A stretch of 64,000 bases of DNA from Schizochytrium sp. TIO01. Its lineage: Eukaryota > Sar > Bigyra > Thraustochytrida > Thraustochytriidae. Positions 41,010-47,527 of the stretch are shown one piece after another. The position numbers were made by a program, and so were the translations under genes. How positions within the stretch are numbered: position 1 is the first letter of the stretch; each line of letters opens with the position of its first letter. The stretch is taken from contig SMSO01000031.1 of NCBI GenBank assembly GCA_004764695.1, forward strand, positions 5,637,261 to 5,701,260, in the 5' to 3' direction. The notes below the pieces were generated by a model. The model saw only the letters and a program-made list of their open reading frames with translations. It did no database searches and was not told the origin of the DNA.

Positions 41010-44000
41010 CTATTCCTCTAGGTTTGATTGGCTCTCCTCATCATCTGCGTTCATAACTTGGTCTTCTGGAACCATGCCAGGTATTTTGGTTTGTAGAAGG
41101 TCTCCATGCGACGTTGAAGAGCCAAGCTGTGACACCTCCCCAATTTCTGGCATCCTGTTGGTTGTCACCAATGCGGAGGAAGATTGAGATAACTTTGTGC
41201 GAGGCTTTAATCGCATACTTGCAGTACTACTCCGTATGACTGCAGAGTTTGCAAAGGCTACATTCGAGGCTGAGCGCTTGAGAACATCTGAGCAATACTT
41301 GTTGTCGGTCTTTGTCGGTTGTTGCCGACTAGAAGTTCGTGCAATCAGTTTATCCTCAATGTCAACAGATGGCATCGGAAGAACAGCTTCTGTTCGTGAA
41401 ATTCCAGGAGAGCTCTTGTCACTGCCACGTTGATAAAATGTATAATTTGACAGCACAAGATCGCGTTGAACCATAGCTGCTGGGCAAAGTCGAGCCAGTG
41501 CATCATACAACGGAAACGCGATATTATTGATAAATCCAAGTTGCATCTGAGGGTCAAAACTTGCCATAAAACTTGTGACTGGTACCCCTACATGTTTTTC
41601 AAGCTCGGTTTGACTCATGAATTCCTCAGTAATACGTGTTACCCATAGCTTATAAGTTGGGAGGTCACGAGCACAATTAGAAACGTCAGCGCACTTAATC
41701 AGAACTTCCATCATAACCGCTCCTGCTTCATCCGACGTGAGCCTCGCTTTAAATGAGGAAGATGCAGTCAAACTAGATGCACAACTTGCGGTACCATCAT
41801 CGTCTTTCATTGTAGCAAGAGAATCCATATATGTGTTCAATTGTTCCACAAATACGCCATGATTTTCCACACTAGTGGCAAGGACTAATCTTGTGATCAT
41901 AGGCTGCACTCTAAGACGAACTTCCGTCAGTTCACCCTGAAGTAAGGCTTCTATAAGTGGTCTGGCTGTTGCTGCATGGAAGTTCTCCAAAATAGGATCA
42001 CTGAATTGTTTGCAGATTTCATTGTTCGTAGCCTTGAGAAAGCCAGCATTGACACCAGGATGACCAACATCGTGTACAGCTGCTGCAATGAGCATTACAA
42101 GACGATCCACCTTGCTGAAGTCTCCACGGGGGGCCATTTCTATCCATATTCATCTTTTCAACAGGAGGAGCAACAGAAGAACTAGAAATATCACTTGTTA
42201 CGTCCACTTCACCTGCTGTTTTACCCATTGATACATAGTTTGATGCATCAGCTCTCTTCATTGACATTGTCATGGCGTTGTTTGGGTTATACAAGACTAA
42301 TTTCTGATGAAGGTGTTGCAATAAAAACACATGACATGCTTGTACTACGTCTGCAGCATGCATGCTATTGTGATAAGGATTAGTTGGATAGAGACGCTCG
42401 ATCTCTTTAGCAAATCGATCAACCATATTAATGTCAAATTCAAACAACTCATAAAACCCGTGCTTTAGAAACAGCAGACGGAGCATGAGATGTAACGGTG
42501 TACCACAAGCCACGCGCTCAAAGGCGAAGATATCAAAACTCCACGAATCAAGCTGAAGGGCTAATGAAGACATTGCATCTCGCTCATGAAAATTCATGCG
42601 CCTAGACCAAGCATCAACTGCCACTGGATGCGCATACATATATAATGCATGCACAGCTTTTAGAGATCCAGTCTGGTACCCATCATTGCTGAAACCTGAG
42701 CTAGAGTACATTGAACTAATGGAAGATCGAACCATGGCAACCCCGTTCCAGTTTCGATTCTTTCCGTCCGATTTACCGGAGTCATGTGCTTTAGATTGTG
42801 AGATTTCGTTTCGTGAACTGCTTGGCTTTGATGTCCAGCGCATTCCTCTCATACGGAAGCCACCCCCTCCCTCAGTAGCAGCAGTAGCAGCTGCTGTAGC
42901 AGCGGTGGAAGCAGCTTCAACAGCTTTTGAAGGTTCAGGGCTGCGCGAGAATCGACGCATAAAAGAGTACAAATTCTCCTTTGTATCGTCAATAGCTTCT
43001 TGTCCCTCTAGAGTATCATCTTCCCAATCTTCGTCAGACGATTTCGATAATCTACGATTCATCGATGGTAGGCGTGCAAGAATTCGCTGCGACGCCCGAA
43101 ACGGTACATGATCTAATGGGGCAGATGCTACCGTGGCCCCAGGTCCCATGCATCTCCAAAACGGGATGCAACAACTTATATGTTTGTCCTGATAATGCTT
43201 CACGAGCTTATCTCCGGACTTGGACTTCATTTTTGCTGCGTCTTGAGAAGAGCTAGCACTTCCAGGTCTGCGCCACTTGTTCAACATCCTTTGTTCATTG
43301 GATGCATTCTTAGATTCCAGATTCCCATCCATTGTAGCACGGATGCTAGGTGCCCGAAGAATGCTTGCACGACGCGTTGATTGACGAATAGAGCGTAATG
43401 TTTCGACGAACTGCGAAGTGGTATCTTCAGCAACAGCTGCAAGAGGGGTCGGAGTGCTTGTCAGATGTCCAGAGCTTCGTCGATTTGAATGAATAAAGCT
43501 TTGAGTCAAATCACCAATCCGAAGCGAAGGTCGTCTCATACTAGCCCAAATCATGGATCGCGACTCATTTGGAGGGGGTTCTTGTTTGAGGCTAATTCTT
43601 GGTGACGACATTTTTTTCCTTGTGTTTCCATCGGAAGAAGTGGCTTCAGCCTGCTCACCGGCTGGTGAATTTGGTTCTACCCTCAAAGCTGGTAAACGCA
43701 TCTCCAAGGTTAATTTTAGGCCGTCGAAGTAGGTATCATGTGCTTGTTGAAGCTGTTTTGCTCCAAGGTGGTGGAACAATAGCATGGCATTGATCTGAAG
43801 CGATAAGGGACTTGTTCGTTCAAGCTTCTCAGGTCCTGTGGAAATGCACTCACTCCAGGACTCTAACACTCCAATTGCTGACTGATGAAATCGAGTGCGG
43901 TGGGCTAACAAAATCTCGCGATATGTCTTGTCTCGCATGATAATGTCACAAAATCGGTAGCATCTATCATTTCCTCGCGAGGCCTCGTATGTGACTCCCG

Positions 44001-44070
44001 CAGAGGATACCACCTTCATATATGGACAATATTCCTCGTGCTGTAATGCAAATGAAGCATTGTTGGGAAT
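41010..44070 (-). CDS. Class I cyclic-nucleotide phosphodiesterase, C-terminal part of a cyclase fusion
   Basis: Two overlapping minus-strand frames (44070-42019 and 42137-41010) together give a complete PDEase_I domain, which hydrolyses cAMP or cGMP to the 5'-monophosphate. The first frame has YHNSMHAADVV. The second has the metal site HDVGHPGVN, then ENFHA, CADVSNCARDL and QLGFINNIAFP, the last carrying the Gln that clamps the purine in PDEs. They must be joined between about 42110 and 42160. There a C6 run in GGCCCCCCG would need one base less, or a 73-nt intron, to continue. The first frame also begins with the end of the cyclase ATPase-like region (YRFCDIIMRDKTYREILLAHRTRFHQ) and a long Ser-rich linker. 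No separate start or promoter space exists, so this is probably one polypeptide with the cyclase upstream. The ATG at 44019 is likely internal. The C-terminus is Ser/Thr-rich. Confidence 0.85.
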
Positions 44071-47000
44071 CTACCTCGGGCCTTGGAACCTCAATAATAA
44101 TACCCATTTGTTGAAGACGCTGCAGGCGAGCTTCTAATTTAAACAGTGCATTGTCTTCTATTTCGACTACAGGTGGATCGTTCGGAGACCCAAATCGGAT
44201 TTCAGGAGGTATTTTGATATCTCGTTCCGCATCTTTAAAAGGAAACACTGCAGCAAGCATGCCTAAATCAAAATAGAGCCCGAAAGCCCCTAACCCTCGT
44301 GCGAGGACGCATGCGCAGCGTAGCACAAATTTCTCTGCAACTTGAAGGTGGTCCAGTACCTGTGCCTCCCAGCGGGTGTTGCAAGCCTTTCCACAAGCTG
44401 TCAACACCTGCAAACGAACGGTATATGACATACTGATGAGACGTGCACGCAATTCAGGCATTATTGAGTTTTGTGATGCGCGCCTTGTTAGATTGATGTT
44501 ATTATTCTTGTCAACCCCTTGAGAAATTGAAGTCTTGGTCTGTACAGGAAGGCCATCCACTACTTTCAATCCTCGCAAGGCATCAATGCACACCATCATG
44601 CGCTGATAATTCCCCCCTGTAATACGATGAAGTGTTCGCACAAGCGGTGCAGACGCCCGAGACACCATGTATCTATTCGAAATGAGTGTATGCGCCTGTA
44701 AGAGATCCAGCGGTTGATCTTCGAGAACTATTGTACGCATGGCCTGCATGAAGCTGACATAGTCATCATTAAGACCAGAAAAGGAGGGGCGACGGGCCAA
44801 AGGGTGCTTGGGAGTCAGTGAAACCACGAAGAAGACACCAGGAAATAGTTTCTTGCCCCTGTTCTCTCGAAGAGAAGCCGCAACTCCGTTTGTGAAAAGG
44901 GATACTGTTGCCTCTGAAAGTGTTGGAGCAGGGTTATGGCTTGCAGCAGCAGCAGCGGCAGCGGCAGCAGCTGATGGTGCCAGTGCATCAAGCTGCACAG
45001 AAAACTCACTTGTAAGATAGCGAATAATCTTCCAGTCCAAGTCTGTGAGAAAGTGTGCGTCTTCTAATGTAAGAATGAGAGGCAATTTGGCATTGGTGAT
45101 GGCTTGGATCATATTCCGAGCCTCTCTCACCACTGAGTTTATTTCGATTGGCTTAAGACTGAAATACTGGGAAGCCACATCAATATCACGAACAGCTTTC
45201 GGCCAAACTTTGAAACATGGATGGTTTAGAAATTTGGTGTCGACCTCAACGTTGTGCTTTCGCGCAAACGCAAGAATGCCACGCAGCATACGATCTGCGA
45301 CAGGTGCTCCAAACATAAGGGAATCTGACAAAAATGCTTTGGTTCGCAACAAGAGACATGAAGGAGCTGCTGCTTGGGTAGAAGAAGAGGCTGTTGAAGA
45401 AGCATGCGGAAGCCATTTTGACCGCTTGTCTGAAATGTAACCGTGCTTTACCGACTTGGCATTAAGTTTACCCAAGTCTCCATGCAGCTGCTGGACAGAC
45501 ACAATATCATTTTGTAATACATAATGTGGCTCCATGTGCAGTTCTTCCCAAATATGCATGCTAAGCTGATGCATCGTGTCCTCTGCGGCGACAGAGTCTC
45601 GACTAAAAATTGCTACTGTACTTGGATGCCGCCCACGTGAGCAAAAGAAGTTGTCAATTGCAAGCATGGCATCAATATGCCTGTGTCTCCATGTCTCATT
45701 CATCGCCGGTGCTGAGTGACGACGTGTAAAGTTGGCAGAGATCTTCATAACAAGGTTTTTCTCGCTTTCTAGAGCAGCCCATCCAGGTTGATAGCATTGA
45801 ACAGCCTCGTTTTTACCTTTCAACTCAATACCTCCAAGAGAATGAAAAATGAAATCCTGCGCGGACTCTTCACAAGCAACACGCGTTGTTTCATCGCAAA
45901 CGATCCGGCCAATGAAACCATCGCTCATCTTCAGTTTTTCCCCACTTTTATTTGCTGCCTGCATAAAACGAGCACTGACATTTACAGAGTCACCAAGCAA
46001 GGTATATTCCTTACGCGACCCACTACCCACGGGGCCACATAAGGCTGTACCTGTCGTCACACCAATATATCGCTTAGTGGAGGAATCAATATCGCGGAGA
46101 GTTTTGACTGTTCGCAAAGCGAATGCTATTCCACGAGCAGGGTCATTCTCATGGGATAATGGAGGAAGACCAAGAGCAAGTAAAACCGTGGTTCCTTTGT
46201 CGTCCACGAGAAACTTGTTAACGCTCGCTTCCACACGATAAGCCTCGCGCTGGACGCTTCGGAAGACAGCCTGAACACGTTGTAGCTGATTTTGAGATAT
46301 TGACACCAAATCATGTGGGTTGAAGCCAAGATTTAAGAAAATAGTTGTAACCTCGCGGACTTCTGCCATATATGCAAGGTTTGAATAGAGGAATGGTGTA
46401 ATTGCGGCAGGCACATACCGTTGAAGCTGACGAATTTCATGGTTGCTAGTAAGCACAGACCGCTTAATAGAAATATTACGCACGCGTTTCTTGCAAGCAC
46501 TAATAACCGCAGAACCACTTGGAAGGTGTTTTGCATCAAAACGATCTTGGATCAGCGCCCATACCTCAGGAGAAACAATAGTTTGGCCAGGTTCGCTCTG
46601 ATTTTCACCAGCAAATGCTTGCAAAAGTGCTTCACCACATGGCACAATTTCAATACGATTCTGCTCACCACCTACATGAAGAATAGAGGCCTTTCCTACA
46701 CCGATACCTATTTTAATGGAGAATTGCACTCCAGCGGCTAACTCAGCACCATGGAGTTCTTCTTGTAGCTGTAGACCAGCTTGTGTTGCTTTGGACGCCA
46801 TGGTGGCAAGGTCAAGATTATTTTTGTCATCGTACTCAGGCTGCCAAAACACAAGCATTGCATCACCTGCAAACTTCATAATATCACCACCTCCTTTACC
46901 AAGTAACTTATTGATTCGTTCAAAATATCGATTGAGAAAGAAACCAAGTTTCTCAGATCCTGCACTACCCTCTGCGCTGAGTCGTTCTGTTAATTTGGTA

Positions 47001-47527
47001 AAGCCACTTACGTCCAGAAAAATAGCAACAGTCTCAAGCTCTTGATTATAAGGAGTGAGGTCCCATACCTCTTCTACCTCACGCAACATTCGTTGCACAA
47101 AATCAACCAAATGCCAAGATGCAAAGTCTTGAACAATTTTGGAACCTGAGTGTCCATCAATATTTTCTGTTGATTGTGTACTCTCCATCAGTGCAGACCT
47201 CCTTCGTGTAAGTGCCCGACTCTTTGAGGCTGGTGTAGGTGCTAATTCGAGTGGAACATCAGTTCCGCTAGATGTGCGTTGTCTTGCAGCCGGTTCTAAA
47301 TCTTCATCGCTACTGATATCATCTTCAGAAGAGGTCACGGAGGATGATCTAGTGTTTGACCTTCTCAAGGATGCGGACGCCGGTAGCTGAAGTACAGAAC
47401 CACTTGCGGTGAAGGTTTGAGTAGAGTCCGTAGCTTGGCTGGAGTATACCCGAGAGTTTGCAAGTGCAACATCCTGTACTCCTTCACCTTCACCTTCATC
47501 TGCTGCATCAACTTTGTGCTCTGACAT
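44041..47527 (-). CDS. Soluble-type adenylyl cyclase with two cyclase domains and an ATPase-like region
   Basis: N-terminal part of the cyclase-phosphodiesterase locus; its frame runs to 43967 but should leave it before then. After an acidic/Ser-rich leader come two class III cyclase homology domains, as in mammalian soluble adenylyl cyclase. C1 (about residues 165-350) keeps both metal Asp residues, in FLDVSGFTKL and KFAGDAMLVFW. C2 (about 390-590) has YIGVTTGTALCGPVGS and EYTLLGDSVNVSARF, the pattern of the partner half that binds the nucleotide. A region like the sAC NTPase follows: it keeps a Walker-B-like strand (LILTLEDAHFLTDLDW), but the expected P-loop is absent where CSRGRHPSTVAIFSRDS stands. 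No membrane segments are present, so it is cytosolic. It presumably makes cAMP from ATP; bicarbonate or Ca2+ control, known for sAC, cannot be judged. Start ATG 47527. It is divergent from the EPC gene. Confidence 0.9.

Follow-up and report, generated by a model that had tools for sequence, protein, structure and literature searches.

Organization of the locus

The window, a stretch of 64,000 nucleotides from the thraustochytrid Schizochytrium sp. TIO01, has a GC content of 38-55% per 2 kb; the genome with which it was compared is a 64-Mb assembly of 37 contigs. Read on the minus strand from 47527 to 41010, the window contains an N-terminus like that of soluble adenylyl cyclase (sAC), consisting of C1 and C2, then an ATPase/winged-helix region in degenerate form and, at the C-terminus, a class I phosphodiesterase (PDE) (Table 1). 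A first-pass annotation had placed a cyclase and a PDE here, and both domain sets, their order, their coordinates and their location on a single strand were recovered with Pfam (PF00211, PF00233) and the open reading frames (ORFs). However, the cyclase does not run into the PDE without a gap, as had been claimed. Instead, the coding sequence is distributed over three overlapping frames, which are connected by +1 frame changes near 44.0 kb (J1) and near 42.1 kb (J2).

Between the cyclase and the PDE parts, the linker contains a cluster of cysteine residues, ISCCIPFWRCMG (window 43180-43130, minus strand), which, judged by eye, is a possible lipid attachment site.

Table 1. Features of the cyclase-PDE locus (window positions)
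Feature	Position	Strand	Basis
Frame 1 (1186 codons, ATG at 47527): N-terminal tail, C1, C2, degenerate ATPase/winged-helix region up to J1	43967..47527	-	ORF list, Pfam, human sAC (ADCY10)
sAC-type cyclase C1	about 47047-46540	-	
C1 metal-binding motif FLDVSGF	47000..47020	-	aligned to human sAC
Second C1 metal-binding motif KFAGDAM	46876-46856	-	aligned to human sAC
sAC-type cyclase C2	about 46430-45790	-	
C2 Lys in NKFLVDDKG	46219-46193	-	aligned to human sAC
C2 motif KEYTLLGDSVNVSARF with active-site Thr, Asn, Arg	45965..46012	-	aligned to human sAC
Walker-B-like LILTLEDAHF	45050..45079	-	motif search
J1, +1 frame change	43967..44103	-	ORFs, profile, codon scores
Frame 2 (683 codons): sAC tail (YRF... 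at 43959), Ser-rich linker, N-terminal PDE part	42019..44070	-	ORFs, Pfam, profile, codon use
sAC tail YRFCDIIMRDKTYREILL, frame 2	43959-43906	-	
PDE start PYHNSMHAADV, frame 2	42378-42346	-	
J2, +1 frame change	42115..42292	-	homology models, codon scores, PDE7A alignment
Frame 3 (379 codons): rest of PDE, then C-terminal tail to stop	41010..42149	-	
PDE motif VHDVGHPG, frame 3	42077-42054	-	
PDE motif KCADVSN, frame 3	41696-41676	-	
PDE motif MQLGFINN with invariant Gln, frame 3	41546-41523	-	

Cyclase and ATPase-like regions

PF00211 matches two stretches of frame 1 (E 8e-14), and human sAC (ADCY10) matches the same frame with an E-value of 1.1e-30; the alignment to human sAC, with an E-value of 5.1e-32, has two stretches, C1 and C2. 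Since both halves can be aligned to the C1 and C2 domains of human sAC, the assignment of the cyclase as sAC-like stands. There are indeed two domains, as annotated, but homology to human sAC identifies them as two halves, C1 and C2, that share a single active site. In this alignment the sAC catalytic residues are kept, namely two metal-binding Asp and a Lys in C1, and Lys, Thr, Asn and Arg in C2. A single ATP site with adenylyl rather than guanylyl specificity would be expected. At the position of Arg176 of human sAC, which we take to be the bicarbonate-site arginine, the alignment places Phe, both in the window cyclase and in its paralogue L022. No relative of frame 1 was found in viral contigs.

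The annotated ATPase-like region is present, but the strict P-loop motif ([AG]x4GK[ST]) is missing: it was not found in frame 1 by motif search and occurs in all of the six paralogues examined. A loose P-loop pattern has a single match in frame 1 (GKLNAKS at residue 686). No AAA family was matched by the window frames among Pfam hits up to E 1. These statements on the P-loop are based on the motif search and Pfam; a full MAFFT alignment of the ATPase regions misplaced some rows around the P-loop.

Phosphodiesterase part

The first-pass annotation described the PDEase_I domain as complete. While the domain is there, it is not contained in one frame but divided between frames 2 and 3. Frame 2 covers positions 1-26 of the PF00233 profile (E 0.0025, which on its own does not reach the family's cut-off) and frame 3 positions 27-231 (E 2.3e-43). 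Joined at J2 according to a 178-nt intron, the PDE matches PF00233 with an E-value of 2.8e-53 and PDE7A with an E-value of 1.2e-38. The part in frame 3 alone is nearest to PDE4 (PDE4C, E 8.5e-24), and the best-scoring solved structures for the window PDE are those of PDE4 and PDE7. The signature of class I PDEs, consisting of the HNxxH, HD and AD motifs and the invariant Gln, is found in YHNSMHAADV, VHDVGHPG, KCADVSN and MQLGFI. By these motifs and scores, the window PDE is predicted to be a class I enzyme most like the cAMP-specific types.

Frame changes J1 and J2

For J1, 71 open models were scored, comprising GT-AG or GC-AG introns and one-base skips. Homology, measured with a profile of paralogues, is highest for two GT-AG introns, 44089-43984 (106 nt, 21.8 bits) and 44074-43984 (91 nt, 20.6 bits); the flanks of J1 alone score 2.3 and 9.0 bits, compared with 20.6-21.8 bits for the best joined models. 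Codon scores are negative at 44077-43970 and do not separate intron from skip, the best one-base skip scoring 34.2 and the best intron 32.1. A search of the genome found no other copy of the J1 stretch.

J2 is either a 178-nt intron (42292-42115, GTATAA...TTCAG) or the result of a single extra base, which could lie in the C6 run at 42133-42128. By homology, the intron heads the 63 models with 205.7 bits and aligns gap-free to PDE7A at this place, while one-base skips at 42138-42120 reach at most 128.6 bits (best single domain) and are absent from the top 14 of the 63. By codon use, a one-base skip scores 42.9 (40.4 in the C6 run), which is more than the 36.2 of the best intron. The top ten models by codon use do not include the 178-nt intron, whose sequence resembles coding DNA in frame 2 (+0.246 per codon).

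For calibration, intron placement was tried at three loci of this genome and succeeded at two, the third (L052) yielding no second exon. The two placed introns, both in CCT genes, are 259 and 362 nt long and share the donor GTAAGTATT. Measured against these two references, no intron candidate at J1 or J2 carries the donor GTAAGTATT, which speaks against canonical introns at both places. GTAAGT on the gene's own strand is confined to the C1 domain.

Comparable frame changes are found elsewhere in the assembly. The gene of the omega-3 PUFA synthase PfaA (L034, near G000:C4:611038; identified by TIGR02813 with 1157.4 bits when read with its neighbours, cut-off 1010.1), an enzyme to be expected in a thraustochytrid, is divided by a +1 frame change at which a one-base skip outscores every intron tried, so that single-base assembly errors are plausible. 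A PDE gene at L032:3798-6075 (minus strand) is likewise split by a +1 frame change, and an intron is not clear there. The gene would be a broken one if J1 and J2 were both genuine and were not spliced out. The reading as a fusion is independent of the choice between intron and assembly error at J1 and J2.

Paralogues in the same genome

Grouped by hand, 20 cyclase matches in the genome fall into at least 15 loci and 13 PDE matches into at least 11. Judged by position, two fusions occur among them, the window gene and L022. L022 (L022:875-8815, minus strand) is an unbroken frame of 2647 codons with the order C1, C2, AAA_16, PH and PDEase_I, in which PDEase_I is matched with an E-value of 1.7e-80 and AAA_16 with 1.3e-5, the latter failing Pfam's cut-off. 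It shares C1, C2, the ATPase region and a C-terminal PDE with the window gene and holds them in one frame. In contrast to the window gene, it possesses a P-loop, a PH domain and a PDE of another branch, in which Ser replaces the purine-binding Gln of class I PDEs. A third gene, L036 (L036:581-5848, plus strand), is an unbroken frame of 1756 codons in which the sAC-type C1/C2, AAA_16 and PH are followed by a GNAT acetyltransferase domain (E 1.7e-7) in the place of the PDE. L025 is the same gene as L036, which represents the full reading.

At L027:4167-8633 (minus strand), a frame of 1489 codons combines a cyclase domain with a weak ion-transport match (E 5.5e-4), which lies under Pfam's cut-off.

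Evidence for a single gene

The sAC tail YRFCDIIMRDKTYREILL and the start of the PDE lie in the same 683-codon frame, which bears out the earlier claim that the join is inside a domain rather than between genes. In 300 first-order Markov simulations of this stretch, frames reached at most 264 codons. When the window protein is assembled with the 91-nt J1 model, a profile of four paralogues (L022, L036, L024 and L028), from which the window was excluded, matches it with a whole-sequence E-value of 7.6e-7; the top-scoring of 500 shuffles has 0.84. For the segment that connects the winged helix through J1 to the tail, the E-value is 3.2e-6. Codon log-odds of the linker in frame 2 amount to +0.14 and +0.23 per codon and those of the domains and tails to +0.11 to +0.27, and both outer flanks, 5' and 3', are negative in all six frames. 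In one half of the linker, a plus-strand frame is also open and weakly coding-like (+0.098).

For the tail itself, a regular-expression search for its motif found nothing, and single-query phmmer missed the tail in the paralogues, so profiles were used. With a two-row tail profile, the piece from the window ranks first and above 500 shuffles, though with an E-value of only 0.06, and the positives L022 and L025 are not among the rows listed above the shuffles. In pairwise tests, the score is reached by none of 1000 shuffles for L028, by 3 of 1000 for L024, by 21 of 1000 for L022 and by all 1000 for L025/L036, so that L036 lends no pairwise support to the tail.

Taken from sequence, cyclase and PDE thus appear to form one gene encoding one protein. 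A chance contact of two neighbouring genes on one strand, one for an sAC-like cyclase and one for a PDE, would account for the stop of frame 1 at 43967 and would agree with the rest of the genome, where no partner match lies beside 9 of the 11 PDE loci and 13 of the 15 cyclase loci (both totals being lower bounds). However, this arrangement is disfavoured by the presence of the sAC tail in the PDE's own frame, stop-free for 683 codons, by the profile match across J1, by the coding-like linker and by the unbroken fusion L022, and we consider it very improbable. Decay of a formerly functional fusion gene by frameshifts would fit the two frame changes, which lack typical splice sites, and the loss of the strict P-loop. 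Against such a pseudogene speak the coding-like codon use in all three frames outside the J1 zone, the catalytic residues, which are intact on either side of the frame changes, and the PfaA gene, whose equivalent +1 change makes assembly errors plausible; decay is accordingly regarded as improbable. The preferred reading remains a single gene for a fusion protein.

Phylogeny of the cyclase and PDE domains

The cyclase tree comprises 9 of the 15 loci, namely the window and the eight others that match its C1C2 region among 12 loci fetched. Window, L022 and L025 (L036) form a clade with a support of 90/91, within which the tree neither favours nor rejects a sister relationship of window and L022 (p 0.368). 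In the PDE tree of all 11 domains, a branch with a support of 90/98 places window and L022 on opposite sides. L032, which has a very long branch, was dropped from later PDE trees, and the separating branch then reaches 97/98 with 10 rows, 94/96 under a different model with stricter column selection, and 98/98 after the removal of three further rows. Sisterhood of the two PDEs is rejected in three set-ups (AU p 0.00127, 0.00599 and 0.0355); the first PDE tree had been seen before these AU tests, and the trees comprise few rows, with long branches. Moreover, the best match of the window's PDE pieces is L033, ahead of L022.

Since the cyclases of window, L022 and L036 group and the PDE domains do not, these trees suggest that a common cyclase chassis probably gained a PDE on two occasions. 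In the simplest reading, a PDE was captured twice, or captured once and replaced once. A single fusion followed by duplication and fast divergence of the PDE would explain the identical domain order of the window gene and L022, and it draws on the cyclase sisterhood, which is not rejected, and on the long branches. It is at variance with the PDE sisterhood, rejected in all three set-ups, and with L036, which completes the cyclase clade and bears GNAT instead; we therefore hold it to be rather unlikely, although less so than the two alternatives discussed above. A swap of the PDE following a single fusion would give identical trees. With two acquisitions as the preferred reading, synthesis and breakdown of cAMP were probably coupled twice, as the PDE of L022 belongs to another branch of the family.

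Proposed mode of action

In all likelihood, the nuclear gene in the window encodes one bifunctional protein of sAC-type cyclase and class I PDE, in which cAMP would be made and destroyed at one place. The architecture, the conservation of active-site residues, the paralogue with its unbroken frame and the conflict between the trees are features read from the sequence; a single transcript, both enzymatic activities and local or self-limiting signalling are what we infer. In the proposed mechanism, the sAC-type C1/C2 cyclase would make cAMP, and the degenerate ATPase/winged-helix module together with the long flexible linker would tether the C-terminal class I PDE. With a PDE tethered by this linker to the cyclase, synthesis and destruction would coincide in space. 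The resulting cAMP pool would likely be small and short-lived, with cAMP escaping from the complex only if synthesis exceeds the attached PDE.

It seems an even bet that one sAC-like lineage of this protist is a chassis which repeatedly captured C-terminal enzymes, two PDEs of different branches and an acetyltransferase, and that, as the window gene lacks both the P-loop and the bicarbonate arginine, the attached PDE might have become the main control. Loss of the P-loop and absence of this arginine, in combination with retained catalytic residues, lead to clear regulatory predictions. If true, the twofold capture of a PDE would point to selection for welding the synthesis of cAMP to its removal.

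cAMP is thought to work in small local pools. To our knowledge, little is known about how such pools are kept small outside animals, without anchoring proteins of the animal type. A protein bearing both enzymes would be the simplest solution.

Comparison with known systems

Proteins combining an adenylyl cyclase (AC) with a PDE are known from streptophytes as CAPE (COMBINED AC with PDE), with the PDE first, the AC last and transmembrane segments between them, according to the accessible parts of PMC8115329 and PMC5159850. Both AC and PDE activities have been demonstrated for CAPE of Marchantia (MpCAPE), as stated in the accessible part of PMC5159850. As far as the available text of PMC8115329 goes, the PDE of CAPE is near PDE9, the purine-binding Gln is replaced by Asn or Thr in plant CAPEs, and CAPE-like proteins with AC and PDE occur in four non-photosynthetic stramenopiles. 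Those of Saprolegnia, Achlya and Thraustotheca are known here only by the description that they have the 'same domain organizations as CAPE' (PMC8115329, accessible part). The AC-PDE kind of protein is thus already known, even in stramenopiles, to judge from this source.

Like CAPE, the window gene combines a class III cyclase and a class I PDE in one predicted protein. It differs in that the sAC-type C1/C2 comes first and the PDE last; the reversed order, which the first-pass annotation had pointed out, agrees with the portion of PMC8115329 at hand. Moreover, the window PDE scores best with PDE4 and PDE7, in contrast to the PDE9-like enzyme which that portion describes for CAPE. Searches of open-licence literature showed no report of an sAC-PDE architecture in thraustochytrids, and an AC-PDE fusion is not described in the accessible parts of PMC5322657, PMC5447177 and PMC12558739. 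Public databases may contain predicted proteins with this architecture that have gone unremarked. New are the sAC-type C1/C2 module, the C-terminal position of the PDE, the lost P-loop and the recurrence of the fusion within a single genome.

Compared with human sAC (ADCY10), the window gene has alignable C1 and C2 domains, an ATPase-like region and a tail, the likeness of the tail being to the paralogues. It differs from ADCY10 by the lack of a strict P-loop, by Phe in place of the bicarbonate-site Arg and by the PDE at its C-terminus. If a PDE was captured twice independently, as is probable, the union of cyclase and PDE in one protein would, together with plant CAPE and the proteins of Saprolegnia type, be a recurrent design.
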